This document shows positions 16,677 through 38,110 of a stretch of DNA of 64,000 nucleotides, piece by piece. The notes beneath the pieces are model-generated. The model ran no database searches. It worked only from the letters and a program-made list of their open reading frames with translations, and was not told the origin of the DNA. How positions within the stretch are numbered: the stretch's first letter is position 1; each line of letters opens with the position of its first letter. Origin of the DNA: Lentimicrobium saccharophilum (lineage in GTDB: Bacteria > Bacteroidota > Bacteroidia > Bacteroidales > Lentimicrobiaceae); contig NZ_DF968182.1 of assembly GCF_001192835.1 (NCBI RefSeq), positions 781,748-845,747 of the forward strand. Reading direction: 5' to 3'. The translations under genes and the position numbers were made by a program.

Positions 16677-16699
16677 AATGTAACGTATTTACGTAATAT

Positions 16700-16730
16700 C
16701 AAAGTAACACTAAAAAACCTGAAATGTCAA
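16700..16730 (-). promoter_or_regulatory. Probable transposase promoter
   Basis: On the minus strand TTGACA (16730-16725) lies 18 nt before TACTTTG (16706-16700), which sits about 24 nt upstream of the transposase ATG. The spacing fits either a sigma-70-like or a Bacteroidota promoter. Confidence 0.45.
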
Positions 16731-16781
16731 GCAAATCAGGCCTTTTGTTAATAAATATTACGTATTGTTGAAAAGTTACGG

Positions 16782-16787
16782 CTTAAT
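16782..16787. repeat. 6-bp target-site duplication, right copy
   Basis: CTTAAT, identical to 15209-15214, directly abuts the right end of the IS. Confidence 0.9.
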
Positions 16788-20567: not shown

Positions 20568-21626
20568 ATGAGAAAAATATTCACCTTTTTATTCATTGCC
20601 ATTACCATAGCCTTTTTGGGTTGTACCGATGAGGAAAATAAGGTAGATGGCCGCCTTCTCGGACTTGATATTAAATTCAAGCATACCAGCCCCAGAACCG
20701 GTGAGGTTTTAACCAACGTTTACGAAGATGCTTACCGCGATGGTGACATGGTTCAGATCAGCATTGAATCAAGCTACGAAATTGAAAGGATTGAAGTGGT
20801 AAACGGAACAACCAAAACCGCCCTGACAACCATTGATGTTAACGGCACAACTGCTTCATTCAGTTATCCCGCTGCAGATCTCGAAATACCGTTCGGACAG
20901 CGGGCAGCACTTAAGTTTCATTTCTATTTTAATGATGCCGGGAAAGACGGATTTGATTACCCTTCAATGAAGTCCATCACCTTCAATGCCAACAGCGATA
21001 TCCCTTCCATCGTAAATTTCAAAAAATCTGATGGAAGTGTTGTGGAGCTGAAAACTACAGATTACAACATTGTTGGTTTTGCCGAAGATGAAGTTCATGG
21101 TGTTTATGCAACAACCATTCCTGATGAGATCTCTTATCTGGAAGTCGAGAACTCTTCATTACTCAATTTTGGTGCCAGCCGCAACTTCTCCATCAGTTTC
21201 TGGATTCAGTCAGACCATGATGAAAGTGATCCTGCAATTATGGGAACCCAGGACTGGAACAGTTCAAACAATAAAGGTTGGGTAATTGCATGGCTCAATG
21301 GCCGCATCAGGGCGGTTGCCTGCGATGGCGATGGAAATAAAACCGACCTGCGCACGGCAGAGGAACAATCAATTTTAGGGGCTGACTGGCATTTTGTTAC
21401 CGTTGTTTTCAATCGCACCGCGAATGCCGAGATATGGATTGACGGACAACTGGCTGTTTCTACCGTTATGGTTAACGGCAACATTGACACAGGGCTCCCT
21501 GTGAAAATCAACCAGGACGGAACCGGGACTTACAGCCCGAGGCTGGGTGCAAAATACAGCGATATTTTCTTTTACGACTATGCACTCACAGAAGCACAGA
21601 TACAGGCAATTTTTAACGCCAAATAA
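20568..21626 (+). CDS. Surface lipoprotein with a C-terminal LamG/concanavalin A-like domain
   Basis: A 352-residue lipoprotein (lipobox FLGC, Cys19). The N-terminal half (about 25-160) looks like one or two Ig-like beta domains. The C-terminal half (about 185-350) is a LamG-like jelly roll with FSISFWIQSDHDESDPAIMG, the WHFVTVVFNRT strand and the terminal DIFFYDYALTEAQIQAIFN. Following susCD this is the position of a surface glycan-binding protein. No catalytic residues are evident. Binding to a mannose-containing glycan is inferred from context. Confidence 0.78.
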   Translation: MRKIFTFLFIAITIAFLGCTDEENKVDGRLLGLDIKFKHTSPRTGEVLTNVYEDAYRDGDMVQISIESSYEIERIEVVNGTTKTALTTIDVNGTTASFSYPAADLEIPFGQRAALKFHFYFNDAGKDGFDYPSMKSITFNANSDIPSIVNFKKSDGSVVELKTTDYNIVGFAEDEVHGVYATTIPDEISYLEVENSSLLNFGASRNFSISFWIQSDHDESDPAIMGTQDWNSSNNKGWVIAWLNGRIRAVACDGDGNKTDLRTAEEQSILGADWHFVTVVFNRTANAEIWIDGQLAVSTVMVNGNIDTGLPVKINQDGTGTYSPRLGAKYSDIFFYDYALTEAQIQAIFNAK

Positions 21627-21951: not shown

Positions 21952-22743
21952 ATGAAAATCAGGAACATATTTATCCTGTTATTACCCGGCATAATCATGA
22001 TGCAGGGAAGTCATTGGCTGCATGCTCAATCGCTTACCCTGCGCGGACATTCGCACAACGATTATGAGCGGGAAAGGCCGTTTTTCTCTGCGTGGGAGAA
22101 CCGGTTGGGTTCGATTGAGGCAGATATCTGGGCGGTGGATTCAGTTTTATATGTTGCGCACGACCGGGAGGAAGTAACTCCCGGGATTACCCTTTGGTCA
22201 TTGTATCTGAATCCGGTCATTGAATTGTATACTGCAAACCACGGAAAAGCATGGAGTGAAGATAACGGTTCATTCCAGTTGCTGATCGACCTTAAAAGCC
22301 CGGTTGTACCAACGCTGGATCTGCTGGTTGAAGTGTTGCTGCCGTATCCTCAGGTTTTTGACAGAGACATAAATCCCGGTGCGGTGGAAATCGTAATCAG
22401 CGGTTCGAGGCCAGCTCCTGATGATTTTAAAAAATATCCGGAGTTCATAAGGTTTGACGGAAATATCGGGGAAACTTACAGCCTGCAACAACTCGAAAGA
22501 ATTTCACTGCTTAGCGCGTCTTTCAGTGATTTCAGCAACTGGAACGGAGAGGGTGCCCTGCCGTTGGCCGACCGCCGGAAACTTCAGCGCATAGTTGATG
22601 AAACACATCAACTGGGTAAGAAAGTCAGATTCTGGGGCGCACCGGATACTGAAAACGCCTGGGCGCAATTTATGGATTTGGGCATCGATTTTATTAATAC
22701 CGATAAACCGGCACAATTTGCTGCTTTTTGTTTCAAAAAATGA
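21952..22743 (+). CDS. GDPD/PI-PLC-like phosphodiesterase, exported
   Basis: A 263-residue protein with a signal peptide (about residues 1-26). It has the pattern of glycerophosphodiester phosphodiesterase/PI-PLC-like TIM barrels: LRGHSHNDYERERPF (catalytic His region), GSIEADIW (Glu/Asp metal ligands), LYVAHDREE (second His) and LLIDLKSP. Family members hydrolyse phosphodiesters to an alcohol and a phosphomonoester. It opens the enzyme part of the PUL, so a phosphodiester on the incoming glycan, such as sugar-phosphate-sugar or a phosphoinositol or phosphoglycerol group, is a reasonable substrate. That is inference. Confidence 0.78.
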   Translation: MKIRNIFILLLPGIIMMQGSHWLHAQSLTLRGHSHNDYERERPFFSAWENRLGSIEADIWAVDSVLYVAHDREEVTPGITLWSLYLNPVIELYTANHGKAWSEDNGSFQLLIDLKSPVVPTLDLLVEVLLPYPQVFDRDINPGAVEIVISGSRPAPDDFKKYPEFIRFDGNIGETYSLQQLERISLLSASFSDFSNWNGEGALPLADRRKLQRIVDETHQLGKKVRFWGAPDTENAWAQFMDLGIDFINTDKPAQFAAFCFKK

Positions 22744-22788
22744 CAGATACGGTGAAAACCCGTATTTTCATAAGCAAAAACAAATTTT

Positions 22789-24447
22789 GTGATCATGACC
22801 TCAAGAAGGAATTTTTTAAGGAACGCTGCCTTGCTGGCAGCCTCGGCGGGGGCTCCCTCCATTGCCATGAAGGCAGCCGGTTTATCAGCCGGGAGCAGTT
22901 CAGATGCGCAAGCACCTGCCGACAGCAATGCCCGGTTCAAGAATACCTATGTTAAGAACGTATTTGTAACCGAAAACGAATTCCGCAATGCGCGTCCATC
23001 CATAACTCCATCTCCCGGGTTCGATATGGCGCGCGAAATTCTGCCCGTGCCTTTCTGGGAAGGGAATCCTGCAGCTGCTGAAATGTATTGGAAAGCATGG
23101 GAAATCGCATTCCGGAATATTAAAGATCCAGCACCGGCGTCCGGTTTTATCAGTTCGTACCTCGACACAGCTTACAACGGCAACATTTTCATGTGGGACT
23201 CGGCCTTTATTACCATGTTCGCACGATATGGAAGCCGGGCATACCCGTTTCAGAAAACTCTGGATAATTTCTATGCCAAACAGCACCCGGATGGATTCAT
23301 TTGCAGGGAAATATGGGGCGATTCGGGTGAAGATTGTTTCCATCGTTACGATCCTACAAGCACAGGACCCAACATTATTCCCTGGAGCGAAATTGAGTAT
23401 TATCATCATTTTGGCGACCTCGACAGAATTCATAAAATATTTCCGGTTTTAGTTGCCTATTACCAATGGTTACGCCTGAACCGGACGTGGCAGGATGGCT
23501 CGTACTGGTCGAGTGGATGGGGCACTGGTATGGATAACCAGCCCAGGGTGCATAAAAACTACAGCCCTATTTTCTCTCACGGGCATATGACCTGGCTCGA
23601 TACCTGCCTGCAGCAGCTGTTTATCGGGAAAATTCTGGTTGACTTTGGTTTTTATACAGAGCGCTGGCAAGAGATTGAAGACATTGAGGACGAAACCAAG
23701 TTCCTGAAAAAATTCATCAAAGAAAAATTGTGGGATCCCAAAACATCCTTTTTCTATGATAAATATGCCGATGGCAGCCGTGGCAACTTCATGGGTATAG
23801 GTGCTTTCTGGGCGTTGTGGACGGATATTCTGGAGAAGCAGGAACTGGATTCTTTTGTAAAGCATCTGGTTAACAAAGATACCTTCAGCCGGCCTCATCC
23901 TGTGGCATCCATGCCGGCAAATCATGAAAAATATCAGTCCGATGGCAGGTACTGGCAAGGCGGGGTTTGGGCGCCCACCAATTATATGATCATCAGCGGA
24001 CTCCGGTCCAAAGGATATCATGATGTTGCTTTTGACATCGCCGGCAGGCACTACAAACAGGTGGCTGAGGTTTTCCGCAAAACCGGTACATTCTGGGAAT
24101 ATTATTCTCCCGAAACTCCGGACCAGGGATTCTTAGCCCGCCCCGATTTTGTGGGCTGGACAGGCCTGGTACCTGTTTCTGTGCTTTTTGAAGGCATTTT
24201 TGGTATCAAAGTAGCGGTAACCAGCAAAACATTGAACTGGGATGTGCATCTGACCGACGCCCATGGAATTGACAGATATCCTTTTGGAAAAGATAACCTG
24301 CTCAATCTGAAGTGCAACGCCAGAAAAAATGCAGGCCATAAACCGCTCATTGAAATTCAGTCGGATACAGAGCTTACCTTGAACTATTCGTGGAAGGGAG
24401 GCAAAGATTCCATGAAAATTGTTCCCGGTACCAATCAAAACTTTTAA
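22789..24447 (+). CDS. MGH1-like glycoside hydrolase (GH63/GH37-type (alpha/alpha)6 barrel), Tat-type signal
   Basis: A 552-residue protein. The start MTSRRNFLRNAALLAASAGA is a Tat-like signal peptide. The body has motifs of the trehalase/GH63-like barrel: NGNIFMWDSAFITMFARYG, LDNFYAKQHPDGFICREIWG, YWSSGWGTGMDN, YWQGGVWAPTNYMIISGL and FWEYYSPETPDQG. These match the MGH1-like hydrolase group, whose characterised relatives act on alpha-linked glucose or mannose derivatives. Paired with GH125 and GH92 it probably removes an alpha-mannosyl or glucosyl unit. Exact CAZy family and bond are uncertain. Confidence 0.78.
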   Translation: MIMTSRRNFLRNAALLAASAGAPSIAMKAAGLSAGSSSDAQAPADSNARFKNTYVKNVFVTENEFRNARPSITPSPGFDMAREILPVPFWEGNPAAAEMYWKAWEIAFRNIKDPAPASGFISSYLDTAYNGNIFMWDSAFITMFARYGSRAYPFQKTLDNFYAKQHPDGFICREIWGDSGEDCFHRYDPTSTGPNIIPWSEIEYYHHFGDLDRIHKIFPVLVAYYQWLRLNRTWQDGSYWSSGWGTGMDNQPRVHKNYSPIFSHGHMTWLDTCLQQLFIGKILVDFGFYTERWQEIEDIEDETKFLKKFIKEKLWDPKTSFFYDKYADGSRGNFMGIGAFWALWTDILEKQELDSFVKHLVNKDTFSRPHPVASMPANHEKYQSDGRYWQGGVWAPTNYMIISGLRSKGYHDVAFDIAGRHYKQVAEVFRKTGTFWEYYSPETPDQGFLARPDFVGWTGLVPVSVLFEGIFGIKVAVTSKTLNWDVHLTDAHGIDRYPFGKDNLLNLKCNARKNAGHKPLIEIQSDTELTLNYSWKGGKDSMKIVPGTNQNF

Positions 24448-24450
24448 GCC

Positions 24451-25878
24451 ATGAAAAGAAGGGATTTTGTGCTTACATCGGCTTTGGGCCTGAGTTACAT
24501 CGGATTGGCGGGTACCCCTCTGAATGTATTTGCAAATCAGGGTTTTGTCGGAATGAGGCCCGCAAGGGAAAAACGCACATACATCAGTAAGGCAGTTGAA
24601 GAAGAGCTTGCTTTGATAAAGAAAGAAATTGCTGACCCGGAGATTGCCTGGTTGTTTGAAAACTGCTACCCGAACACCCTGGATACAACAGTAAGGTTTT
24701 CATTAAAAGGGGAAGAGCCCGACACTTTTATCATCACCGGTGATATTAATGCCATGTGGCTGCGCGATTCAACCGCCCAGGTATGGCCTTACCTGCATCT
24801 GGTGAACAAAGATGAAGCGCTTAAGGAATTATTCAAAGGGCTGATCAACCGCCAGGCCGGTTGCATCATTCTTGATCCTTATGCCAATGCCTTTAATCAT
24901 GGTGCTGAAGGAAGTTATTGGGAAACTGACCTCACCGAGATGAAAAAGGAATTGCACGAACGCAAATGGGAGATTGATTCACTTTGTTACCCGGTGAGGT
25001 TATCCTATCATTACTGGAAAGAAACCGGTGATGCCTCGCCTTTTGGTGAAAAATGGCAGAAAGCGGCAAAACTGATCGTGCAAACCTTTAAAGAGCAGCA
25101 GCGCAAAGATGGCAAAGGTCCTTACAGTTTTATGCGGGTGACCGAACGCGCAACCGATACTGTGCCCGGTCAGGGTTATGGGAATCCGGTGAAGCCGAAC
25201 GGGTTGATATGTTCAACCTTCAGGCCATCGGACGATGCCACCATTTTTCTTTTTCTGATTCCTTCCAACTATTTTGCCCTGGTTTCGCTCAGGCAGTTGG
25301 CCGAGATATCAGTAAATATCCATGGAAATGCTCCGTTTGCTGCTGAATGCAATGCCCTGGCCGATGAAGTGGAAGCGGCACTTAAAGAGTTTGCCATAGT
25401 CAGGCATCATAAACTCGGTGAATTTATTCCTTTTGAGGTGGATGGTTTCGGGAATTATCACCTGATGGACGATGCCAATGTTCCCAGTCTGCTTTCGCTG
25501 CCATACCTCGGTGCACTGAAGAATGATGATCCCCTTTATCAGCAGACCCGCAAGCTTTTACTCAGCGAACATAATCCCTGGTTCAGCAGGGGGAAATATG
25601 CCGAAGGCATTGGCGGCCCGCATGTTGGTGAACATATGATCTGGCCCATGAGTATCATTATGCGGGCCATGACTTCCACTGACAAACAGGAAATCAGGCA
25701 GTGCCTGGGCTGGCTGAAACGCACCCATGCCGATACCGGATTTATGCATGAATCATTTCACAAAGATGACCCGAAGAATTTCACCAGGTCATGGTTTGCA
25801 TGGGCAAATACCTTGTTTGGTGAACTGATTGTCAAAGTACACCAAAATCATCCTGAAATTCTAAAAGAGATTCTGTAA
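24451..25878 (+). CDS. GH125 exo-alpha-1,6-mannosidase, exported
   Basis: A 475-residue protein whose start MKRRDFVLTSALGLSYIGLA resembles a Tat signal. It carries the GH125 (formerly DUF1237) motifs FENCYPNTLDTTV, GDINAMWLRDSTAQVWPYL, LICSTFRPSDDATIFLFLIP and GGPHVGEHMIWPMSIIMRAM. GH125 enzymes are metal-independent, inverting exo-alpha-1,6-mannosidases acting on N-glycans and mannans. It starts 3 bp after the MGH1-like gene and ends 12 bp before GH92, so the three enzymes are certainly co-transcribed. Confidence 0.93.
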   Translation: MKRRDFVLTSALGLSYIGLAGTPLNVFANQGFVGMRPAREKRTYISKAVEEELALIKKEIADPEIAWLFENCYPNTLDTTVRFSLKGEEPDTFIITGDINAMWLRDSTAQVWPYLHLVNKDEALKELFKGLINRQAGCIILDPYANAFNHGAEGSYWETDLTEMKKELHERKWEIDSLCYPVRLSYHYWKETGDASPFGEKWQKAAKLIVQTFKEQQRKDGKGPYSFMRVTERATDTVPGQGYGNPVKPNGLICSTFRPSDDATIFLFLIPSNYFALVSLRQLAEISVNIHGNAPFAAECNALADEVEAALKEFAIVRHHKLGEFIPFEVDGFGNYHLMDDANVPSLLSLPYLGALKNDDPLYQQTRKLLLSEHNPWFSRGKYAEGIGGPHVGEHMIWPMSIIMRAMTSTDKQEIRQCLGWLKRTHADTGFMHESFHKDDPKNFTRSWFAWANTLFGELIVKVHQNHPEILKEIL

Positions 25879-25890
25879 AAACCTGCTGAC

Positions 25891-28821
25891 ATGAAAAAAA
25901 TTCTTGTTTTACTCACATTAACAGTAATTCTTTTTACTTCCTGCTCCAGAAGCAGGCAAAAACCTGCCGATTACGTCAATCCGTTTATAGGAACCGGCTT
26001 TCATGGACATACCTATCCCGGAGCAACCACTCCATTCGGTGCAGTGCAGTTGAGCCCCGATACCAGGCGCGGAAACTGGGATGCCTGTTCAGGATATCAC
26101 TACAGCGACAGCAGCATGTACGGGTTTTCACATACCCATCTGAGTGGAACGGGATGTATTGACCTGGGCGACATACTGTTTCATCCTACCATAAAGGATG
26201 TGGCCCTGAAACCGGAAGGCTATATTTACGATATGCTTCCGTTTTCACACGATAATGAGAAAGCATCTCCCGGATTTTACGAAGTAAGTTTCCCTGAAAC
26301 CGGTATCAAAGCTTCTTTAACTGCTACGCCAAGGGTTGGAATTCATCAGTATACTTTCCCTGAGTCGGCCGGATCAAAGATTATTATTGATCTGGCACAC
26401 AGCCTTGACAATGAAAGAATAGACCATCTGGATCTTAAGGTGGTGAGTGATACTGAGATTGCCGGGGCCAGGCTCACCAGCGGATGGACCCCCAATCAGC
26501 ACATATACTTTGTTGCCAGGTTTTCAAAGCCATTTGGCAATGTAAGGTTGGTTTCGTCGGGTATTGAGATTCAGGACTCCATCAACATCAGCGGTAAAAA
26601 TATTCAGGCCATCATTGGCTTCGAAACCGGAAAAGGCGAAAAAATTGACGTGAATGTCGGCACATCGCTGGTAAGTATTGACAATGCAAGGCTGAATCTT
26701 GAAGCCGAAGCCCCTGATTTCGGCTTTGAAAAATACAGAAAAAAAGCTGAATCCCTTTGGGATGAAGCATTGTCATCAATTCAGGTAGATGGCAGATCCG
26801 AATCTGACAAGGAGATCTTTTACACAGCCATGTATCACACCATGGTGGTGCCCAATCTTGTGAGCGATGTCAACGGAGATTTTCGCACGCACGATATGCA
26901 GATAAAGCGACTGCCGGAAGGCCGGAATATGTACTCAACGCTTTCGCTGTGGGATACTTACCGGACCTGGCATCCGCTGATGACATTGGTTAACAGCAAT
27001 TTGACAACCGATATCGTCCATTCCATGCTTGAAATGTACGAAACCACCGGAGAATTACCGATCTGGCCTTTGGCTTCCGGCGAAACAGGAACCATGATTG
27101 GTTATCACTCGGTTTCTGCAATCTGGGATGCCTGGCAAAAGGGAATCAGGGATTTCGACGGAGAAAAGGCGCTGAATGCGATGGTTGTTTCTTCACAAAA
27201 GCCCAGAAAGGGAGGAAGCCACTACCTTACGCAGGGATGGATTCCTGCAAATATGGAAAAGGAATCGGTTTCATGTCTGCTTGAGTATGCCTATGATGAT
27301 TGGTGTATTGCAATGATGGCCAAAGAGTTGGGTAAGGAGGACATACATAAGGAATATACCCGCCGGGCATATAATTATCTGAATGCTTTCGATGGAAATA
27401 CTGGCTTTTTCAGAGGGAAGCGCTCCGATGGAAACTGGGTTACTCCTTTCAGTCCAGTGGTGGTGAGCCGCGATTATACCGAAGCCACAGCCTGGCAATA
27501 CCGTTTTTATGTACCGCATGATGTTCATGGATTTACCCAGCTATTGGGCGGATATGAGCAGTTTAATGCTGCCCTCGACCAGTTATTCAGCGAGAACACA
27601 AAGTTTATTGCCGAAATACCTGATATTACCGGACTTATCGGGCAATATGCACATGGCAATGAACCGAGCCATCATGTGGCTTTTCTCTATAATTATTCCG
27701 GCGAGCCATGGAAAACCCAGGAAAGGGTGAGATACATCCTTAAAGAATTGTATCAGGCCGCCCCTGAAGGTATTCCGGGTAATGAAGATTGTGGACAGAT
27801 GTCGGCCTGGTACATTATGAGCAGTCTTGGGATTTATCCGGTTTGCCCCGGAAGCGGTGAGTATGCCCTATCTTCACCCCTGTTTGAGAAGGCCAGTATG
27901 AAACTTCATAATGGCAAGACATTGGAAATCAAGGCGAATGATCCTCAAAAGAACGCTTATATCAGCAAGGTTACCTTTAACGGCACTGAAATTACTGCCA
28001 ATTTTATCACTCATGAAATGCTGATGCAGGGCGGAGTGCTGGAATTTACCCTTACCGGCAAACCTGTTAAAACACGTGGAGTAACCGATGCTGATGCGCC
28101 TTATTCGCTTACGGCAAATAATATGGTTTCAACAGTTTATTGCCCCAACGATCTGCACTTGTTTATTGATGAAACCATGCTCGAACTGGGCTGTATCACC
28201 CCCGGTTCGGAGATCAGATTTACGCTGGATGGCTCGGAGCCCATGCAAAATTCAACGTTGTATGCCAATCCTGTTAAACTGACTCAATCTGCGCAGGTGA
28301 GGGCGAGGGCTTTCAGGGAAGGCTATGCTCCCGGCCCTGAGTTTAATGTAAAAGCTACCAAAGCGCTGATGCGCCTGCCCGAAAAGAAATCGGCCACTGA
28401 AAACGGGGTGCGTTTCAAATACTTTGAAGGAAAGTTTAAACGTACAGATGACATGCTGGGAGCCACCGCTCTGAAAAGTGGAATCCTTCCCGAACCATCT
28501 ATTGACGGAGCTGAGGTTGAAGATTCCTTTGGCTTTGAATTTACAGGATACCTTTTTATTCCTGCTGATGGAATTTACGATTTCTATACCGAATCAGACG
28601 ATGGCAGTGTGCTGATGATTGGATCCGAAGTGGTGGTGGATAACGACGGATCACACGGAGCCATCCGGGCAACCGGAAAGATTGCCCTCAGCAAAGGTTA
28701 TCACAGCTTCATACTGCGGTATTTTGAAGATTACGAAGGCAACTCCCTGGAATGGGGCTGGAAAAAGCCCGGCAGTTATGCGATGGAGTTAATTGCCGCA
28801 AAAGACCTGTTTCTGAATTAG
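25891..28821 (+). CDS. GH92 alpha-mannosidase with chitobiase C-terminal-like and PA14 domains
   Basis: A 976-residue lipoprotein (lipobox FTSCS, Cys18). The GH92 body spans about residues 28-730: YVNPFIGTGFHGHTYPGAT at the N-terminus, LWDTYRTWHPLMTLV, the calcium/catalytic segment GNEPSHHVAFLYNYSG and CGQMSAWYIMSSLGIYPVCP. GH92 enzymes are Ca-dependent exo-alpha-mannosidases, most often alpha-1,2. Two accessory modules follow: a CHB_HEX_C-like segment (about 755-820, FTLDGSEPMQNSTLYANPV) and a PA14 domain (about 835-970, with VVDNDGSHG). The same two modules recur in the PHP protein, and PA14 in the second metallophosphoesterase, so all probably target the same glycan. Confidence 0.95.
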   Translation: MKKILVLLTLTVILFTSCSRSRQKPADYVNPFIGTGFHGHTYPGATTPFGAVQLSPDTRRGNWDACSGYHYSDSSMYGFSHTHLSGTGCIDLGDILFHPTIKDVALKPEGYIYDMLPFSHDNEKASPGFYEVSFPETGIKASLTATPRVGIHQYTFPESAGSKIIIDLAHSLDNERIDHLDLKVVSDTEIAGARLTSGWTPNQHIYFVARFSKPFGNVRLVSSGIEIQDSINISGKNIQAIIGFETGKGEKIDVNVGTSLVSIDNARLNLEAEAPDFGFEKYRKKAESLWDEALSSIQVDGRSESDKEIFYTAMYHTMVVPNLVSDVNGDFRTHDMQIKRLPEGRNMYSTLSLWDTYRTWHPLMTLVNSNLTTDIVHSMLEMYETTGELPIWPLASGETGTMIGYHSVSAIWDAWQKGIRDFDGEKALNAMVVSSQKPRKGGSHYLTQGWIPANMEKESVSCLLEYAYDDWCIAMMAKELGKEDIHKEYTRRAYNYLNAFDGNTGFFRGKRSDGNWVTPFSPVVVSRDYTEATAWQYRFYVPHDVHGFTQLLGGYEQFNAALDQLFSENTKFIAEIPDITGLIGQYAHGNEPSHHVAFLYNYSGEPWKTQERVRYILKELYQAAPEGIPGNEDCGQMSAWYIMSSLGIYPVCPGSGEYALSSPLFEKASMKLHNGKTLEIKANDPQKNAYISKVTFNGTEITANFITHEMLMQGGVLEFTLTGKPVKTRGVTDADAPYSLTANNMVSTVYCPNDLHLFIDETMLELGCITPGSEIRFTLDGSEPMQNSTLYANPVKLTQSAQVRARAFREGYAPGPEFNVKATKALMRLPEKKSATENGVRFKYFEGKFKRTDDMLGATALKSGILPEPSIDGAEVEDSFGFEFTGYLFIPADGIYDFYTESDDGSVLMIGSEVVVDNDGSHGAIRATGKIALSKGYHSFILRYFEDYEGNSLEWGWKKPGSYAMELIAAKDLFLN

Positions 28822-28837
28822 TTAAAATTGTTTCTCA

Positions 28838-29689
28838 ATGAAGAAGATACTCTTTCTGGTAATATTAGCGCTGCCACTTGTTTACAGTTGTAAAAACAAT
28901 GAGCTGGTCAGGATCAATGTGCTGAGTTTCAACATCAGATACGATAACCCGGACGATTCGCTCAATAACTGGAAATACCGCAGGGATTTTGCTTCAGAAA
29001 TGATTCGTTTTTACGGGGCTGATATTATCGGTGCCCAGGAAGTGCTTAAAAATCAATTAGATGACCTGGATAACGCATTGCCCGGGTTTTCTTACATCGG
29101 TGTTGGTCGCCTGGATGGCAAGGAAGATGGAGAATTTGCACCCATCTTTTATAATTCCGGCAGGTTTTCGGTGCTTGAAAGTGGTCATTTCTGGCTCAGT
29201 GAAACACCTGAAATTCCCGGATCAAAAGGTTGGGATGCTGCCTGCGAGCGCATTGTAACCTGGGCGGTTTTCAAAGATAAACCGAGCGGTAAATCCTTTG
29301 CTTTCTACAATACACACTTTGATCATGTGGGAGAAACCGCTCAGCAGGAGAGTGCCATCATGCTGCTGGCTCATATCCGGGAAAATGTCAAGGGAATTCC
29401 GGTAGTTCTTACCGGAGATTTTAATGTAATCCCCGGTTCTGAAGCCGTGAACACCCTGCTTTCGGGTGATCTGCTGGTTGAAGCCGGTAATATTTCCGGA
29501 ATCAACTATGGCCCGTCATGGACATTTCATGACTTCGGCCGTGTTCCTTTAAAGGATCGTGTAAAAATTGATTATATGTTTGTCAGTCAACCCATAAAGG
29601 TCGAATCTTATGCATCAATTTCAGAACAGAAAGACTCGGTCTACCTGTCTGACCATAATCCTGTCTTTGCAAAACTGGTTCTTCAATAA
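28838..29689 (+). CDS. Endonuclease/exonuclease/phosphatase (EEP) family lipoprotein
   Basis: A 283-residue lipoprotein (lipobox VYSC, Cys18). The EEP active-site series is complete: VLSFNIRYDNPDDS (Asn), DIIGAQEVL (Glu), FYNTHFDHVG (His), LTGDFNVIPG (Asp, Asn) and YLSDHNPVFA (Asp, His). The exported form, rather than the DNA-repair form, and its place in a mannosidase operon point to a sugar-phosphate or inositol-phosphate phosphatase or a phosphodiesterase. It lies 16 bp after GH92. Confidence 0.88.
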   Translation: MKKILFLVILALPLVYSCKNNELVRINVLSFNIRYDNPDDSLNNWKYRRDFASEMIRFYGADIIGAQEVLKNQLDDLDNALPGFSYIGVGRLDGKEDGEFAPIFYNSGRFSVLESGHFWLSETPEIPGSKGWDAACERIVTWAVFKDKPSGKSFAFYNTHFDHVGETAQQESAIMLLAHIRENVKGIPVVLTGDFNVIPGSEAVNTLLSGDLLVEAGNISGINYGPSWTFHDFGRVPLKDRVKIDYMFVSQPIKVESYASISEQKDSVYLSDHNPVFAKLVLQ

Positions 29690-29775
29690 ATAATTTTCGG
29701 AAAACCAGATTGTCAAATTAATAACAAACTGTTTGGTCTCCTTAAGTTCAACAACAAGATAAAATTGATCTCACA

Positions 29776-30936
29776 ATGAAGAAAAAATATTTTCTGTTTG
29801 TCTTTGCCCTGGCTATTGCCTGGTTATTTATAAGTCCTGCTGTTTTTGCACAATACGAAAAAACGGAAGAAAGCGGCGATAAACTGGCTTATGTTAAGCA
29901 GCAACCTTACGAAACGGTAAAGGTAACTACTCCTGCGGGAAAAGTTGTTAAGAATGTGATACTTATGATTGGCGATGGTATGGGTTTGACTCAGGTTTCA
30001 ACTGCCTGGGTTGCCAATCACGGAAATTTGAACATAGATAACTTCCCTGTTATCGGGCTTAAAAGGACTTATGCTGCCAATAAGCTGATCACCGATTCAG
30101 GAGCAGCCGGCACGGCCCTGGCAACCGGAAAAAAAACCAATTACCATTCGGTGGGGGTGGATACTGCGGGCAATTCCATTCCTTCGCTCACCGATCTGGC
30201 ATCGGAAAAGGGATTGTCAACCGCTGTGGTTGTTACCTGCAATCTTTCAGATGCTACGCCTTCGGCCTTCTGCGCAAGCAACAAAGACCGGGATAACGAG
30301 GAGGAAATTGCCGCCGATTATCTCAACTGCAATGTAGACTATATTTTTGGCGGAGGACGCAATCAGTTTTATAAAAGGAAAGACGGTCGTAACCTTTTTA
30401 AGGAAATGGAGGCCAAAGGTTATCAGGTGTGTTTCACCTGGGAAGAGACCGCCAAAATAGAAACAGGGAAGGTTTTCTCTGTGCTTGATGATGGTCAGTT
30501 GCCATTGTATCCCGAAAGGGGAGAGGTTTTTAAAGATGCCACCCTGCATGCGCTGAGTCTGCTTTCCGGAAGCGAAAAAGGATTTTTTGCCATGTTCGAA
30601 GGGTCGCGTATTGATGATTGCGGACACTGGCATGATATTCCCGCCCTCATCAATGAGATGGCTGATTTTGATCAGACCATAGGCAGAGTGCTGCAATGGG
30701 CCGAAAAGGATGGAGAAACGCTGGTGATTGTGCTGGCCGACCACGAAACCGGAGGACTTACCCTGCTGGGAGGTGACATCAGCAAAGGTGAAGTAAAAGG
30801 GCATTATTCTACCGGAAGTCACTCGGGCATTCATGTGCCGGTGTATGCCTGGGGACCCGGAGCGGAGGAGTTTGCCGGAATCTATGAAAACACCGACATC
30901 TTCAACAAAATCGCAGGACTCCTCAAATTAAAATAG
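29776..30936 (+). CDS. Alkaline phosphatase, exported
   Basis: A 386-residue alkaline phosphatase superfamily protein with an N-terminal signal peptide (about residues 1-26). Metal and catalytic motifs are present: VILMIGDGMGLTQVS (metal Asp), ITDSGAAGTALATGKKT (nucleophile region), MFEGSRIDDCGHWHD, VLADHETGGLTLLGG and TGSHSGIHVPVYAWG. It would remove phosphate monoesters in the periplasm, acting after the phosphodiesterases of the operon. It starts 86 bp after the EEP gene and ends 1 bp before the PHP gene. Confidence 0.93.
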   Translation: MKKKYFLFVFALAIAWLFISPAVFAQYEKTEESGDKLAYVKQQPYETVKVTTPAGKVVKNVILMIGDGMGLTQVSTAWVANHGNLNIDNFPVIGLKRTYAANKLITDSGAAGTALATGKKTNYHSVGVDTAGNSIPSLTDLASEKGLSTAVVVTCNLSDATPSAFCASNKDRDNEEEIAADYLNCNVDYIFGGGRNQFYKRKDGRNLFKEMEAKGYQVCFTWEETAKIETGKVFSVLDDGQLPLYPERGEVFKDATLHALSLLSGSEKGFFAMFEGSRIDDCGHWHDIPALINEMADFDQTIGRVLQWAEKDGETLVIVLADHETGGLTLLGGDISKGEVKGHYSTGSHSGIHVPVYAWGPGAEEFAGIYENTDIFNKIAGLLKLK

Positions 30937-30937
30937 C

Positions 30938-32737
30938 ATGAGAAAAACCTTTATATTACTATTTGCTTTTTTTACTGCCGTTGCTTTACAAGCTCAGGAG
31001 CGCGACATTCAGTTTGAATGGATTGAAGGCTTTCAGAAGGTAGATTCCCGACGTGAGATAAAGATTCCGGACATACCAGGTTATAAAACGCTGAAAGGTG
31101 ATTTTCACTCCCACACCATTTTCTCAGATGGGATTGTTATGCCTTCGGAGCGCATTCATGAGGCCTGGCGGGAAGGACTCGATGTGATTGCCATCACCGA
31201 CCACACCACCAGGCAGCCATCCTATCTTACCTCCGATTACAATACTTCCTTTAAAATGGCAGAATCAGTTGCCAAAAGGCGGGGTATCACCCTTATTCCT
31301 GGTATTGAATACACTAAAAGTGAGCCGGTAGGGCACTTGAATATTTTGTTTTTAAAAGATGCCAACTACTACGCCCGCCCTGATATTACCCCGGATGAAG
31401 CGCTGGATTATGCCGGAAAGGAAGGTGCTTTTGTTATTTACAACCACCCCGGATGGCCAGATAAGGACAGCAGACTTGATGCGTTTCAAATCAGGCATCT
31501 CGAAAAAAAGAACATCAGGGCCATGGAAGCCATCAACGGAAATGAGTTTTATCCTGTTGTGCTTGACTATTGCGCTCAATATCAGATTTCACCTTTCAGT
31601 AACACAGATATTCATTCCCCCATTTATGCTTCCTTTCCGGTTGACCAGACCATACGAAACCTGACCCTTGTTTTCGCAAAGGAAAACTCAGAAGAAGCAA
31701 TAAAGGAAGCGATGTTTGCCGGCAGAACCCTGGGATTGGCCAATAATATGCTGGTTGGTAACGGATTGTACATCAGTCAGTTGATCAAGGAGTCGCTTCG
31801 TGTAACCAATTTGATTCTGGATGACTACAACTTCTCGTGCAATGTTACCAATCTAAGTGACATCACCTGGGTACTTTACGGGCCAGGCCACAGACGGTAT
31901 GTCTTTCCCGCGGGAAGAACTGTTCAGCTAAGCGACTTATTGTCGGATGCCGAACTGGTTTACAAGGTTAAAAATACATGGGTGGCTTCTGATCGTCACC
32001 TGGAAATACCGCTTATGTATATTCTGGCAGAAAAAGAAGAAGTTCACATGCCTGTAGTCGGGCAAAATCTTACCCTTATCGATAAGGATCAGGCCATTTT
32101 TGCTGAATGCCTCACCCAGGGAGCCGAAATCAGGTACACAACCGATGGCAGTGTGCCGGATCAGAATGCTCAGCGCTGGCAACAACCACTTCGACTGAAT
32201 CAGTCCGCAACCCTCACCCTGAGGGCATTTAAGGAGGGAATGAAACCCAGCAGGTTATTCCGCAGGCAGGTAATTATCAATCAGTTGCATGAACCATCAG
32301 GAATCAAAGCCAAGGAAAGGGGACTGAATTATCAGTATTATGAAGGTGAAATTCTTTCAGTGGTTGAGATACCGGTCAAAGGGAAAAAAATATCTGAAGG
32401 AATATCAGAATCTTTAGATATTAAACTTGCCAAAGCTGATGACCACTTTGGAATAATTTTTACCGGTTATCTGTACGCCCCTGTTTCCGGGCTGTACACC
32501 TTTGCGCTGGAAAGTGACGACGGGGCAACCTTCAGCATTTCAAATGTTGAATTACTTGACAATGATGGTTCACACAGCCTCAAGCGCGTGGAAGGAAAGA
32601 TTCAGTTGAAAAAAGGATTTCACCCGATCACAGTCCGGTATTTCGACGACTACGAGGAACAGGAAATCAGGCTTTTGTGGTCATTTCCGGGAAAACCCGA
32701 AACGGAAATTTCGCCAGAGTATTATTTTGCAAGATAA
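30938..32737 (+). CDS. PHP-domain phosphoesterase with chitobiase C-terminal-like and PA14 domains, exported
   Basis: A 599-residue protein with a signal peptide (cleaved near LQAQ). The PHP domain covers about residues 45-330 with the metal set DFHSHTIFSDG, VIAITDHTTR, LIPGIEYTKS, VIYNHPGWPDKDS and NTDIHSP. PHP domains hydrolyse phosphoesters with a trinuclear metal site. A CHB_HEX_C-like segment (about 375-430, RYTTDGSVPDQNAQRW) and a PA14 domain (about 450-595, LDNDGSHS) follow, in the same order as in GH92. An exported PHP enzyme with sugar-binding modules is unusual and supports a phosphorylated glycan substrate. Confidence 0.88.
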   Translation: MRKTFILLFAFFTAVALQAQERDIQFEWIEGFQKVDSRREIKIPDIPGYKTLKGDFHSHTIFSDGIVMPSERIHEAWREGLDVIAITDHTTRQPSYLTSDYNTSFKMAESVAKRRGITLIPGIEYTKSEPVGHLNILFLKDANYYARPDITPDEALDYAGKEGAFVIYNHPGWPDKDSRLDAFQIRHLEKKNIRAMEAINGNEFYPVVLDYCAQYQISPFSNTDIHSPIYASFPVDQTIRNLTLVFAKENSEEAIKEAMFAGRTLGLANNMLVGNGLYISQLIKESLRVTNLILDDYNFSCNVTNLSDITWVLYGPGHRRYVFPAGRTVQLSDLLSDAELVYKVKNTWVASDRHLEIPLMYILAEKEEVHMPVVGQNLTLIDKDQAIFAECLTQGAEIRYTTDGSVPDQNAQRWQQPLRLNQSATLTLRAFKEGMKPSRLFRRQVIINQLHEPSGIKAKERGLNYQYYEGEILSVVEIPVKGKKISEGISESLDIKLAKADDHFGIIFTGYLYAPVSGLYTFALESDDGATFSISNVELLDNDGSHSLKRVEGKIQLKKGFHPITVRYFDDYEEQEIRLLWSFPGKPETEISPEYYFAR

Positions 32738-32746
32738 GCAGCATCA

Positions 32747-34489
32747 ATGCACCTGAAATATATCTTTTTCATTCAATTACTGATTTTTTCCATAAACGGA
32801 AACAGTCAGTTTATTCATCAAAGGCAGGTTTCAGGGGCAAATCCATGGACGTCAGCGCCTGAGATTTCAGGAGATAATTACAGGTTTATTGTTGCCGGAG
32901 ATATTACCGGAGGAGAAGAACCCGGAGTTCTGGCAGAAGCGGTGCATAGAATTAATGAACTTTCTCCCGATTTTGTTATTACGGTTGGTGATCTGATTGA
33001 CGGTTACACTACCGACAGCCTGCGGGCCGAGAGACAGTGGGATGATTTTCTGAAAGTGATCGGAAATCTTGAAATGCCCTTCTTTTTTACAGCCGGAAAT
33101 CATGACATCACCAATCCAATGCTTGAGGATATCTGGAATCGCAGGTTTGGAAGCCTTTGGTATAGTTTTAAGGTTGGCAGTTCTTTATTTTTTGTAATCA
33201 ATCCTGCAGGAATAGCCAACAAAGGTTTTGATGCCGGACAGCTTGAATATTTTAAGAGCAGGCTTGAAAATCATAATGCAGGTGCTCCGGTGTTTATTTT
33301 TATGCATTATCCGGCAAAGGAAATGGCTGACAATGATCATTTCGTCGAGTTCAGCCGTTTGCTGATGAATTACAATGCTTACTGGTTTTGCGGACATGAG
33401 CACCGGTATGTTTATGAAAAATTCAATGGACAGCCACATATTATGCTCGCCGGACTTGCCACCGGAGGACCGGGAATACGCGGGCACAAACTGGGAGAGT
33501 ATCATAATCTTATGCAAATCTCAGTGCGGGGCAGTGAAGTGCGCATAGCAAACCTCGATCTCGCAGGACTATTGCCCGTGGATGCGGTGAACCCGTCAAC
33601 AATAAAACAGGTTGATGTGTTGCGCCGCGGCAGTTGGGCTGAAGCTGAAGTTGTGTATTCAACGGACAGAATGGTTTCATCTGTTTTCACAAGAATGTTG
33701 CTGAAGAATGAAGGTGAATTCCCTTTACATGTCAGCGGCTCATTTATGTCAGAAAAAAATATCTCAATTAATCCGGTCCGGATTGATACGTTGATTCAGC
33801 CAGGTGAAACTTCACTCATTCCGGTGGAATTTTCAGCCCCGGAGAAGTTTGATTTAGCCGGCTTAAACGGAATTACATTCAATTCAACCGCTGAGTTTTA
33901 TCAGCCGGGAGCAGCTTTAATGACTACGCATGAATTGATTGTTTTATCTGATTATCTCAGAATTTGCCATTATTCCGTTGATCCTCAGGTAAGTTTCACG
34001 GATACTGAAGTGCCTTTTGAAATTGAAGAAGACTGGGACTGGAAAGGGAATCATGATGCCTCATTCTCGCTTGAAACAACGCACGATGAAAAGCACATTC
34101 ATATCAGCGTTAAAATAACCGATGACCGGTGGGTGTTGTCTGACCATAGGGCGCATGATAAACTGTTGGTTTATTTTTCTCCGGAAACCACATCGAAACC
34201 ACAGCAGGCTTTTCAGTTTCAGTTCAATGCGGGCGAAGGCAGTGCCAGGGTTGTTTCCGCATCCGGAAGAAAAATCAAATTCAGGTCATCTGCTGAAATG
34301 CATGGTGAGGAAATGTATGTAAATCTGTCTGTTCCTGCCGGCCAGGTTAAAACGGGTTATTTCAGGCTGAACCTGATATACACCGATGTGGATGACCCGT
34401 CTGGTATTGATCATACAAAGTTGAACTGGCGTCCCTGGGAAACCTCCGGCAGGTGGAACAAGGGAGCCGGAATTTTTCTGGTAAAATAA
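32747..34489 (+). CDS. Calcineurin-like metallophosphoesterase with C-terminal CBM9-like domain, exported
   Basis: A 580-residue protein with a signal peptide (about residues 1-24). The metallophosphoesterase domain (about 45-270) shows VAGDITGGEEPG (modified first motif, with no GDxH His), VGDLIDG, TAGNHDIT, FMHYPAKE and WFCGHEHRYV. The C-terminal region (about 420-580) has an acidic start and DKLLVYF followed by beta strands, resembling a CBM9-like sugar-binding domain. The missing first-motif histidine may change the metal centre. It begins 9 bp after the PHP gene. Confidence 0.82.
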   Translation: MHLKYIFFIQLLIFSINGNSQFIHQRQVSGANPWTSAPEISGDNYRFIVAGDITGGEEPGVLAEAVHRINELSPDFVITVGDLIDGYTTDSLRAERQWDDFLKVIGNLEMPFFFTAGNHDITNPMLEDIWNRRFGSLWYSFKVGSSLFFVINPAGIANKGFDAGQLEYFKSRLENHNAGAPVFIFMHYPAKEMADNDHFVEFSRLLMNYNAYWFCGHEHRYVYEKFNGQPHIMLAGLATGGPGIRGHKLGEYHNLMQISVRGSEVRIANLDLAGLLPVDAVNPSTIKQVDVLRRGSWAEAEVVYSTDRMVSSVFTRMLLKNEGEFPLHVSGSFMSEKNISINPVRIDTLIQPGETSLIPVEFSAPEKFDLAGLNGITFNSTAEFYQPGAALMTTHELIVLSDYLRICHYSVDPQVSFTDTEVPFEIEEDWDWKGNHDASFSLETTHDEKHIHISVKITDDRWVLSDHRAHDKLLVYFSPETTSKPQQAFQFQFNAGEGSARVVSASGRKIKFRSSAEMHGEEMYVNLSVPAGQVKTGYFRLNLIYTDVDDPSGIDHTKLNWRPWETSGRWNKGAGIFLVK

Positions 34490-34506
34490 CTTTATTCAAA
34501 GATACT

Positions 34507-36006
34507 ATGAGTATACCCTCTTTTATTCATTTCAGGACCAGGTGGCCAATGTCGCTGCTTTTGTTGCTGTGGTGCGGTTTTTCTGCTGCCCAGAATTCAG
34601 CAGTTCTAAGATTCCGTCATGGTGAACCATTTAAAATCGTTCAGTTTACTGATGTACATTGGGACAATACTCAACCCAATTGTGCTGAAACAGCATCGGT
34701 AATTAAGCATGTACTTGCCGCTGAAAAACCCGATCTTATAATCTTGACCGGAGACATCGTAACCTATTCTCCGGCTGCAAAGGGATGGGATGCCATTGCG
34801 GCTATAATGTCGGAGTCGGGTATTCCATGGGCTGTGACACTGGGCAATCACGACGATGAACCCGGGTTGTCCCGGTCAGAGATTTTTGATTTACTCGAAC
34901 CCAAAAAGGGTTTTATCGCTCAAAAAGGGCCCGAAGAAATTTCCGGCACCGGCAACTATATACTGGAAATAAAAGCTTCAGATTCCGATAAAACCTCGGC
35001 GCTGATCTATTGCATTGATTCACATAGTTATCCTGAGGATAAAAAGTTGGGTAGTTACGACTGGGTCAAGTTTGATCAGATTGAGTGGTACAGAAAACAA
35101 AGCCGGAAGTTTACCGAAGTCAACGGTGGTAATCCATTGCCTGCACTGGCTTATTTTCATATTCCAACTCCTGAGTACAAAGAGGTATATGACTCAAAAT
35201 CAAGCCTTGGAGAAAAAAACGAGGGAGTTGCTTCCCCATTGTTAAACTCGGGTTTGATTACTTCCATGATTGAGATGGGTGATGTAATGGGCACTTTTAC
35301 CGGTCACGACCATGAAAACAATTACATAGCCTTGTATCACAGTCTGGCGTTGGCGTACGGACAGGTTACCGGAGTAAATGCTTATGGCAAGTTTGAACGC
35401 GGGGCCCGGGTGGTTGAAATTAGCGAAGGAGCTCACAGTTTTAATACCTGGATCAGGACAAATTCCGGAGTTAGCTTTCCCTATAATTTTCCTTTCGGAG
35501 GTACTTACGATGAATCAGCCTACGATTTTCTGAAAGCTGAGCAACTTTCAGACATGAAACCTGGCATCTCATTCAGTTATTTTGAGGGGGAATTCAAATC
35601 CACTGATGATTTTACAGGTTCTGAGCCCGTTAAAAATGGCCTTGTCAGGGAAATAACGCTGGAACCCCGGCAAGCAGAGGATCATTTCGGTTTTGAATTC
35701 AACGCCTGGATTGAAATTCCGGAAAAAGGGCTCTATCGCTTCTCTACTTATTCCGACGATGGATCCAGACTTTATATAGGAGGGAAATTGGTGGTTGATA
35801 ATGACGGTTCGCACAGTGCAAGGCGAAAAGAAGGGGCTGTTGCACTGGAAAAAGGCCTGCATCAGTTCAAACTTTTATACTTTGATGACTATATGGGCCA
35901 AACCCTTGAAGCCGGGATTTCGGGACTTACGTTCAGAGAAAAACCGGTCACCGGGGCTATGCTTTTCATCCCGGAAACTAAAAGCAAGCCGGACCACAAA
36001 AAATAA
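34507..36006 (+). CDS. Calcineurin-like metallophosphoesterase with C-terminal PA14 domain, exported
   Basis: ATG 34507 gives 499 residues with a signal peptide (about 13-32); an upstream in-frame ATG at 34453 would overlap the previous gene by 37 bp and hide that signal. Active-site motifs are QFTDVHWDN (complete DxH), LTGDIVTYS, TLGNHDDE, AYFHIPTPEY and FTGHDHENN, as in fungal and bacterial Dcr2-like or purple-acid-type phosphatases. A PA14 domain (about residues 355-490) carries VVDNDGSHS, nearly the same as in GH92. It closes the phosphatase series of the PUL. Confidence 0.9.
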   Translation: MSIPSFIHFRTRWPMSLLLLLWCGFSAAQNSAVLRFRHGEPFKIVQFTDVHWDNTQPNCAETASVIKHVLAAEKPDLIILTGDIVTYSPAAKGWDAIAAIMSESGIPWAVTLGNHDDEPGLSRSEIFDLLEPKKGFIAQKGPEEISGTGNYILEIKASDSDKTSALIYCIDSHSYPEDKKLGSYDWVKFDQIEWYRKQSRKFTEVNGGNPLPALAYFHIPTPEYKEVYDSKSSLGEKNEGVASPLLNSGLITSMIEMGDVMGTFTGHDHENNYIALYHSLALAYGQVTGVNAYGKFERGARVVEISEGAHSFNTWIRTNSGVSFPYNFPFGGTYDESAYDFLKAEQLSDMKPGISFSYFEGEFKSTDDFTGSEPVKNGLVREITLEPRQAEDHFGFEFNAWIEIPEKGLYRFSTYSDDGSRLYIGGKLVVDNDGSHSARRKEGAVALEKGLHQFKLLYFDDYMGQTLEAGISGLTFREKPVTGAMLFIPETKSKPDHKK

Positions 36007-36146
36007 ACCTTCTCTTGTGTCTCTCCGGTTAGGGATTGCCCGGTTTTTAATCCGGAGAAATACTCTAAATAACAGTTAATCAATGCAATGCTTGTTTGTT
36101 TGCTGTACCTTGTAAGCAAAGGAGATTGCCCGAAATATGTTCTTTT

Positions 36147-36998
36147 ATGACAAAAAGCAAAATGCTGGGTTTCGATATCGGCGGAACCAATCTAAGGGCC
36201 GGAGTAATTGAAAACGGAAGCGTTCTGAGCATTTACCGCGAACCCATTGGCGATCAGTTTGACGAACAGGGGACCATAAATCAGGTTATTAAACTGATAT
36301 CTATGGCCATGTCGCCGGGAATAATTTCAATAGGTGTTGGAGTGCCCTCTGTGGTGGATGTCAAAACAGGGATAGTTTATGATACTGTCAACATCCCGTC
36401 CTGGAAGGAAGTGCCACTGAAAGACATTCTGGAAAAACAATTCGGAATTCCCGTTCTGATCAACAACGATGCAAATTGTTTTGTACTCGGTGAAAAATAC
36501 TTTGGTTCGGGTAAAAACGTGAGTAATCTTACCGGACTTATTCTGGGAACAGGGGTAGGGGCCGGCCTTATCATGAATAACAAACTCGTTCCTGGCCATA
36601 ATTGCGGAGCCGGCGAATTTGGGATGGTTTCCTACCTGGAGCACGATTATGAGTATTATTGCGGAGGAGGGAATTTCGAACTACTCTATGGTAACAGTGC
36701 TGTTGAAATATCCAGACTGGCCGGAGCGGGCAATCCGGAAGCATTGAGAATCTGGAACACTTACGGAAAGCACCTGGCCGAATTGATTAAACTTGTGCTT
36801 TACACGGCCGATCCCCAATCCATTGTTCTGGGAGGTTCACTTTCGCAGGCATATCCGTTCTTTAAGGAGAGTATGCTGCAATCACTGCAAACATTTGCCT
36901 TCAGAAATACACTGAAAAACCTGAGTATTCATGTTTCGGAGCTTGAATATGCCGGCGTGCTCGGGGCGGCCTGCCTGTACAACGATTCCGGGATATGA
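36147..36998 (+). CDS. ROK-family sugar kinase
   Basis: With ATG 36147 the product is 283 residues, starting MTKSKMLGFDIGGTNLRAGV, the phosphate-binding motif of ROK kinases. LINNDANCFVLGEKYFG carries the catalytic Asp and LILGTGVGAGLIMNN the second nucleotide motif. The usual zinc motif CxCGxxGC is reduced to a YYCGGGNFE-like segment, so the structural zinc site is probably lost. ROK kinases phosphorylate glucose, GlcNAc, mannose or fructose in the cytoplasm. Following the mannose PUL it probably phosphorylates the released sugar (mannose or an amino sugar). Confidence 0.87.
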   Translation: MTKSKMLGFDIGGTNLRAGVIENGSVLSIYREPIGDQFDEQGTINQVIKLISMAMSPGIISIGVGVPSVVDVKTGIVYDTVNIPSWKEVPLKDILEKQFGIPVLINNDANCFVLGEKYFGSGKNVSNLTGLILGTGVGAGLIMNNKLVPGHNCGAGEFGMVSYLEHDYEYYCGGGNFELLYGNSAVEISRLAGAGNPEALRIWNTYGKHLAELIKLVLYTADPQSIVLGGSLSQAYPFFKESMLQSLQTFAFRNTLKNLSIHVSELEYAGVLGAACLYNDSGI

Positions 36999-37022
36999 AC
37001 GGCAACTATAATTAAAACAGCA

Positions 37023-38048: not shown

Positions 38049-38110
38049 TTTTGCATTCCAGGCCGGGTGGGGAGAGAAAATATTTAATTTTACCACCCAA
38101 ACCTCCTGCA

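Follow-up and report, generated by a model that had tools for sequence, protein, structure and literature searches.

The window analysed here is a stretch of 64,000 nucleotides from Lentimicrobium saccharophilum (contig NZ_DF968182.1), and the system in question is a series of nine plus-strand genes at 21952–36006, separated by small gaps or overlapping, in which mannosidase-type glycoside hydrolases stand among phosphoesterases. A sequence-only reading had described nine co-directional genes of named families, six of them of phosphoester-hydrolase type. This description holds: the coordinates match the list of open reading frames (ORFs), and a Pfam scan gave a supporting family match for every one of the nine genes, the six being a GDPD/PI-PLC-like enzyme (GDPD), an EEP-family phosphatase, an alkaline phosphatase (AP), a PHP phosphoesterase and two calcineurin-like phosphoesterases (MPE1 and MPE2) (Table 1). 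By its gene content the locus is a polysaccharide utilisation locus (PUL), because a regulator, a SusC (split), a SusD and a LamG lipoprotein stand upstream; an adjacent SusC/SusD pair is present, with SusC in fragments here, together with the regulator and co-directional glycan-active enzymes whose export was judged by eye. The feature is real, goes beyond chance, is conserved more widely than the window shows and is a known kind of system. We put at roughly 60% the probability that it belongs to a conserved Bacteroidota PUL class for a short alpha-manno-oligosaccharide with phosphodiester-linked groups; we know of no described substrate for this set of PUL enzymes.

Table 1. Features of the mannosidase–phosphoesterase locus and its surroundings in the window.
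Feature	Coordinates	Strand	Support or remark
LacI-type sensor with AraC helix-turn-helix regulator	12504..13667	+	Pfam Peripla_BP_3 7.1e-37, HTH_18 2.1e-18
SusC N-terminal fragment (signal peptide, CarbopepD_reg_2, Plug)	14232..15230	+	stops at boundary of insertion sequence
Insertion sequence inside susC; DDE transposase 15231-16676	15215..16781	-	6-bp target duplication CTTAAT
SusC C-terminal fragment, TonB-dependent barrel	16765..18894	+	TIGR04056 9.8e-153, model positions 318-981
SusD-like lipoprotein	18908..20479	+	SusD_RagB 2.6e-26
LamG-domain lipoprotein, SusE position	20568..21626	+	Laminin_G_3 1.7e-13
GDPD/PI-PLC-like phosphodiesterase	21952..22743	+	Pfam GDPD_2 8.7e-10
MGH1/GH63-like glycoside hydrolase, marker gene of the system	22789..24447	+	Pfam MGH1-like_GH 7.7e-32
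GH125 (family of exo-alpha-1,6-mannosidases)	24451..25878	+	Pfam 4.2e-171
GH92 alpha-mannosidase with Fn3_assoc/CHB_HEX and PA14	25891..28821	+	Pfam 8e-176
EEP-family phosphatase	28838..29689	+	Pfam Exo_endo_phos 7.4e-16
Alkaline phosphatase (AP), PUL-type subfamily	29776..30936	+	Pfam Alk_phosphatase 1.5e-70
PHP phosphoesterase, CehA/McbA-type, with CHB_HEX and PA14	30938..32737	+	Pfam PHP 1.7e-06; NCBIfam CehA/McbA 1.4e-22
Calcineurin-like phosphoesterase MPE1	32747..34489	+	Pfam Metallophos 2.8e-12
Calcineurin-like phosphoesterase MPE2 with PA14	34507..36006	+	Pfam Metallophos 2e-13
ROK sugar kinase, possible downstream member	36096..36998	+	Pfam 1.5e-46
SIS-domain sugar-phosphate isomerase/deaminase-like protein, possible downstream member	37023..38048	+	weak GlmS-isomerase, NagB-II matches

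To examine conservation, 84,980 species, each represented by one genome, were searched with the MGH1-like protein used as bait. Of the 213 confirmed MGH1 stretches the 80 best were kept, 52 of them at least 18 kb long, and detection profiles were built from MGH1 loci and applied at E<=1e-8. As a control, 60 GH92 loci of the same order were taken (55 of 20 kb, five of 11–19 kb), three being the others of the window genome and 57 drawn from the upper part of a list of GH92 matches ranked by score; the 57 were taken in order where the match started beyond contig base 10,000, skipping overlapping or already fetched places and G043. The 80 MGH1 loci carry GH92 in 57 cases, AP in 55, GDPD in 43, MPE2 in 40, EEP in 32, GH125 in 31, ROK in 29, PHP in 5 and MPE1 in 4, whereas the 59 control loci without MGH1 carry no AP, GDPD or MPE2, with EEP in 4, GH125 in 1 and ROK in 13. 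Even at the laxer E<=1e-3 the same controls gave AP 0, GDPD 0, MPE2 1 and EEP 4, and the only control locus with MGH1 (L164) carries AP, EEP, MPE2, GH125 and ROK. Where an MGH1 locus has GH92 and is at least 18 kb long (44 loci), AP is found in 38, GDPD in 28, MPE2 in 28, EEP in 23 and GH125 in 23, and only two such loci (L043, L049) lack all four of AP, GDPD, MPE2 and EEP. Fisher p values, descriptive figures that ignore relatedness, were 1.7e-19 for AP, 5.6e-14 for GDPD, 1.0e-12 for MPE2, 4.9e-6 for EEP and 3.2e-8 for GH125.

The association of MGH1, GH92/GH125 and phosphoesterases is thus not a matter of chance, and chance clustering is ruled out by control GH92 loci that lack AP and GDPD and show MPE2 in one case only, at E<=1e-3. 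Counting the six phosphoesterase families per locus, 13 of the 80 have none, 12 have one, 19 two, 19 three, 13 four and 4 five; GH92 or GH125 is present in 60 MGH1 loci, of which 58 carry one family or more and 52 carry two or more. SusD matches accompany 51 of the 80 MGH1 loci and 3 of the 60 controls. GH92 together with several phosphoesterases occurs under titles such as Lentimicrobium, Sunxiuqinia, Parabacteroides, Bacteroides and Dysgonomonas, and also in a Chitinophagaceae metagenome-assembled genome (L058) and in Gelidibacter (L110). The expectation that the phosphatase genes would be conserved with GH92/GH125 was therefore borne out in part: GDPD, AP, EEP and MPE2 recur far outside the genus, but PHP (5/80) and MPE1 (4/80) do not follow them, so that a core of all six phosphoesterases is ruled out and these two are accessory, local additions. 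Similarly, ROK as a specific member of the system is unsupported (29/80 against 13/59, Fisher p 0.09).

Other baits delimit the system further. A GH125 match was found in 14 of the 60 relative genomes searched, the window's own included, and among the 13 others the phosphoesterase series surrounds GH125 only in the same-genus G005 and G013; GH125 alone does not therefore indicate the system. One further GH125 locus (L020) shows an EEP match near its edge, and several GH125 stretches are short contigs of 5–13 kb. With AP as bait, matches at E<=1e-60 were found in 167 of 393 genomes of the order, with a top band of 12 places at 462–611 bits and the next score at 438. Nine of these 12 places lie within 15 kb of an MGH1 match, the remainder being G353 (on another contig of a genome with MGH1), G138 and G028, and among the lower-scoring AP matches listed none was seen by eye within 15 kb of an MGH1 match. 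Another AP of the window genome (C2:866539), at 399.5 bits, falls under the top band.

Domain fusions link the phosphoesterases to one another. GDPD and AP domains share one ORF in 13 of the 80 loci; an MPE–GDPD fusion occurs in L101 and in Parabacteroides L066 (Metallophos 35–262, GDPD 331–558), and in Parabacteroides L065, L067, L069, L070 and L071 a GDPD domain ends an ORF of 584–688 amino acids. In L199, a single stop-to-stop frame of 1128 amino acids without X comprises GDPD (38–267), AP (318–656) and MPE2 (664–963). Since a diesterase is fused to a monoesterase, the architecture suggests that the two work in succession on one phosphate. A 1281-amino-acid stop-to-stop frame in L038 (14997–18839), with SusD first and AP last, was also noticed, which could reflect a gene fusion or a misassembly.

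A second link runs through the PA14 module. The C-terminal regions of the window's GH92, PHP and MPE2 proteins, PA14 included, share 37–48% mutual identity over 116–201 residues, and PA14 is carried by GH92 in 46 MGH1 loci and by MPE2 in 36, against 3 of 69 control GH92 proteins (L164 included). Because this module is common to all three enzymes, the mannosidase and the phosphoesterases seem to be directed at one common target.

Export signals of the nine proteins were read by eye from the translations: GH92 and EEP have lipoprotein-like N-termini, the MGH1-like and GH125 proteins have twin-arginine motifs at the N-terminus, and GDPD, AP, PHP, MPE1 and MPE2 have Sec-signal-like N-termini. The ORF of MPE2 opens at GTG 34453, and the ATG at 34507 stands before the signal-peptide-like stretch. 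The closest titled records of the MGH1-like protein are from Lentimicrobium sp. (91 and 99% identity), and no equivalog cut-off was reached against NCBIfam. Its predicted model has a GH63-type fold with the catalytic Asp and Glu, although confidence is low near residues 171–194 and 241–247; its GMDN motif aligns to GLDD of GH63, and the Asp in it (D249) is what we take to be the catalytic acid. For GDPD, a TIM-barrel phosphodiesterase fold with the catalytic His and acidic metal ligands is predicted, and in structure comparison PI-PLC and GDPD structures tied in Z, with ordinary GDPDs within 1 Z; a sequence search of solved structures gave no match for GDPD at E<=0.1 and none for MPE1 at E<=0.01. 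The nearest solved structure to GH92 is 6f8z (7.6e-179). EEP matches 3g6s, a putative EEP protein (4.4e-78), and less closely 4c1r, named as a mannosyl-6-phosphatase (1.7e-53), while a profile match of AP to 2w5v was obtained at 3e-97. Residues D67, S108, D322, H323 and H349 of AP are conserved in 28 of 28 sequences, and eight residues of metal or active-site type in MPE2 (numbered from base 34504) are invariant in 23 of 23. In calcineurin-like enzymes the first motif is usually DxH; in MPE1 it reads GDIT, so its metal site may differ from the usual one.

The surroundings of the nine genes add several features. Phmmer matches to the upstream regulator lie near MGH1 in 27 of the 80 loci, the weakest 7 at 26–30 bits. 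After the PUL come the ROK and SIS genes, two tandem pyridoxal-phosphate-dependent decarboxylases and urocanase (36096–43195 in the window), and from SusD through urocanase the gene order is kept in the same-genus relatives G005 and G013, ROK and SIS included. The GlmS-isomerase and NagB-II (glucosamine-6-phosphate deaminase) matches of the SIS protein are weak and far under the cut-offs; by family, the downstream ROK and SIS proteins could handle an amino sugar. Scans for promoters and terminators gave numbers of sites no higher than in shuffled sequence. Among the operon genes of at least 180 amino acids, 85 carried no label; Pfam was run on 50 of these, and the neighbour families referred to below are the 25 commonest of the 52 found. 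A gene of about 780 amino acids in some gut loci, considered as a GH92-like unknown, proved by Pfam to be GH20. DUF3863/DUF3864 proteins make up 5 of the 50 neighbours; one stands before a GH92 (L054, 4437–5879) and matches the solved structure 3lm3 at 1.1e-217.

The break in susC is due to an insertion sequence with imperfect terminal repeats (20 of 25 positions matching). Three full copies, the one in susC included, are present in the assembly, and the insertion looks recent because they are about 100% identical. In G005 susC is a single frame of 1032 amino acids, and in G013 it occupies two overlapping frames, which may be an assembly error. In this particular assembly, import through the SusC of this locus is probably lost.

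Among described systems, the yeast alpha-mannan PULs of Bacteroides thetaiotaomicron, reportedly characterised by Cuskin and colleagues in 2015, are among the closest. The present locus is like them in having SusC/D, GH92, GH125 and an EEP protein homologous to 4c1r. It differs in that the window genome has no GH76 and the locus no GH38, and in the addition of the GDPD/PI-PLC-like enzyme, AP, the PA14-bearing MPE2, PHP and the MGH1/GH63-like protein; thus the GH92 and GH125 of such a PUL are found, but its GH76 (in the assembly) and GH38 (in the locus) are not. Yeast mannan breakdown is described with GH76, GH92, GH38, phosphatases and GH125 (PMC10154615). Another study reports 576 SusC/D loci with phosphodiesterases and no known CAZymes, for which nucleic acids were suggested as target (Lapebie et al. 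2019, PMC6499787); the present locus is like these in combining SusC/D with a calcineurin-like phosphodiesterase (PF00149) and unlike them in having GH92, GH125 and an MGH1-like enzyme. Compared with GH63 and mannosylglycerate hydrolases (YgjK, 4wva, MhGgH), the MGH1-like protein is weakly similar (4.2e-08), with a divergent N-terminal half and a twin-arginine N-terminus. Presumably GDPD and MPE2 fall in the same broad superfamilies as the eukaryotic GPI-processing enzymes PI-PLC and PGAP5 (GPI, glycosylphosphatidylinositol); unlike those, they are bacterial and, by eye, exported, and MPE2 bears PA14.

From the observed gene content, conservation, fusions, PA14 modules and residues we infer a substrate, linkages and an order of steps. 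SusC/D would import a phospho-glycan, whose phosphodiester would be opened by the GDPD/PI-PLC-like enzyme, by the PA14-bearing MPE2 or by both, and AP and the EEP phosphatase would take off the exposed phosphomonoester; GH92 and GH125 would then trim alpha-linked mannose, and the MGH1/GH63-like enzyme, as an alpha-glycosidase, would cut a remaining alpha-linked core residue. As families, GH125 acts on alpha-1,6 and GH92 mostly on alpha-1,2 mannose, and one of each would fit a short Man-a1,2-Man-a1,6-X, the MGH1-like enzyme accounting for one more alpha-linked residue. The sequence-only reading had proposed that the substrate carries both phosphodiesters and phosphomonoesters, and the GDPD–AP, MPE–GDPD and GDPD–AP–MPE2 fusions strengthen that proposal. 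It had also preferred short oligosaccharides to long mannan chains on the grounds that the locus has neither GH76 nor GH38. This is true of the locus, and the preference gains from the whole assembly, which has 0 GH76 and one GH38 some 540 kb away: long yeast-type mannan is disfavoured because GH76 is missing from the assembly. The substrate class, a short alpha-manno-glycan bearing phosphodiesters, is moderately supported.

Naming the substrate within this class is a guess. GPI has the structure Man-a1,2-Man-a1,6-Man-a1,4-GlcN-a1,6-inositol-phosphate, with ethanolamine-phosphate branches and, in mammals, a beta-GalNAc on Man1. Among the candidates named, a glycan of the GPI type is tentatively the best-fitting known one; the locus has families that could serve alpha-1,2-Man, alpha-1,6-Man, a further alpha-linked core residue and a phosphodiester. 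It is possible, though doubtful, that the pathway harvests the glycan core of GPI anchors: the GDPD/PI-PLC-like and PA14-bearing metallophosphoesterases would strip inositol and ethanolamine phosphodiesters, AP and EEP would remove phosphates, and the glycan would be dismantled by GH92, GH125 and the MGH1-like enzyme, joined in some gut species by GH20. The MGH1-like protein would then cleave the Man-alpha-1,4-GlcN or the GlcN-alpha-1,6-inositol bond, as a glycosidase so far unrecognised. GH20 is found in 14 of the 80 loci (13 titled Bacteroides, Mediterranea or Alistipes, one Gelidibacter), and its addition in some gut-type loci fits a GPI-type glycan. A literature search found no GPI-directed PUL; most subscription papers lay outside that search, which makes this a weak sign of novelty.

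Several points weigh against the phospho-manno-glycan reading and against GPI within it. The stretch examined shows no phosphoesterase in thirteen of the 80 loci, eight of them among the 52 that are at least 18 kb long, and six of these eight are titled Flavihumibacter. Many carriers are related, so that the counts are not independent events; moreover, the profiles were made from the MGH1 loci themselves, and the control came from the top of a ranked list. In this genome susC is broken, and the reading as a whole was built from sequence. GDPD used as bait gave 23 places in 21 genomes, of which 15 lie away from MGH1 and 8 beside it (one a partial match). L182 (G272) and L192 (G345) are SusC/SusD–GDPD–AP loci in which the profiles recognised no mannosidase, and their SusD proteins, at 518 and 539 bits, are closer to the window's SusD than are most of the 51 from MGH1 loci. 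As to GPI in particular, 12 of the 14 GH20 loci lack GDPD, the two being nearly exclusive; 15 other Parabacteroides, Bacteroides, Phocaeicola and Bacteroidaceae loci have no GH20 in the stretch, and GH20 is matched near 8 of the 60 control GH92 loci as well, in two cases at just 40–41 bits. Because of this distribution of GH20 we slightly lowered our estimate for GPI. The neighbour Pfam matches listed include GH130 (weak, 2/50) and GH97 (1/50), but no family clearly devoted to ethanolamine or inositol catabolism.

Two of the loci drawn in by GDPD have further contents of their own: L182 goes on with genes for a NUDIX/winged-helix protein, a transporter of the SSF family and a GH94 protein, and L189 (G192) holds GH92, two GDPD-type proteins and a sulfatase at 1175–10000, with no MGH1 in the stretch.

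The homology of EEP to the named mannosyl-6-phosphatase 4c1r would also suit a PUL for fungal-type phosphomannan or a phosphorylated N-glycan, a variant of the B. thetaiotaomicron yeast-mannan systems in which Man-P-Man side-chain diesters are cut, EEP and AP free the phosphate of mannose-6-phosphate, and GH92 and GH125 eat the rest. The joint handling of yeast mannan by phosphatases, GH92, GH38, GH76 and GH125, as set out in PMC10154615, points the same way, and both GH20, for beta-HexNAc, and the weak matches to GH130 in 2 of 50 neighbours would suit N-glycans. Yet EEP is nearer to 3g6s than to 4c1r, the assembly offers no GH76 and GH38 only far away, neither is among the 25 of 52 families listed for the 50 unlabelled neighbours, and a PI-PLC/GDPD-type enzyme lies outside the mannan pathway as described in PMC10154615; we regard this substrate as unlikely. 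An inositol-phosphate glycolipid other than GPI, such as actinobacterial phosphatidylinositol mannosides or fungal glycosyl inositol phosphorylceramides, is improbable: the structures within 1 Z of GDPD include ordinary GDPDs, the GH20 of some gut versions does not suit phosphatidylinositol mannosides, and the neighbour families listed include no clear lipid-handling gene, general alpha/beta-hydrolase families occurring in 2 of 50.

AP is a classic enzyme of phosphate starvation, and the cluster might mainly scavenge phosphate, its exported phosphoesterases having gathered next to a mannosidase PUL to which they have little tie in function. The GDPD and AP loci with SusC/D and no recognised mannosidase (L182, L192) speak for this. 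Nonetheless, it appears very improbable, as AP, GDPD and MPE2 are in 0 of 59 control GH92 loci at E<=1e-8, the PUL-type AP forms a separate top-scoring band while the genome has another, lower-scoring AP elsewhere, the PA14 module is common to GH92, PHP and MPE2, and SusD matches concentrate in the MGH1 loci.

If the phospho-manno-glycan reading is true, it would reveal a widespread Bacteroidota PUL class aimed at a phosphate-linked manno-glycan, for which the MGH1-like gene with AP, GDPD and a PA14-bearing MPE beside GH92 would serve as a genetic signature, and it would predict glycosidase activity for this GH63-like group. Should the substrate be the GPI glycan, gut and environmental bacteria would have a dedicated route for a near-universal eukaryotic glycan.

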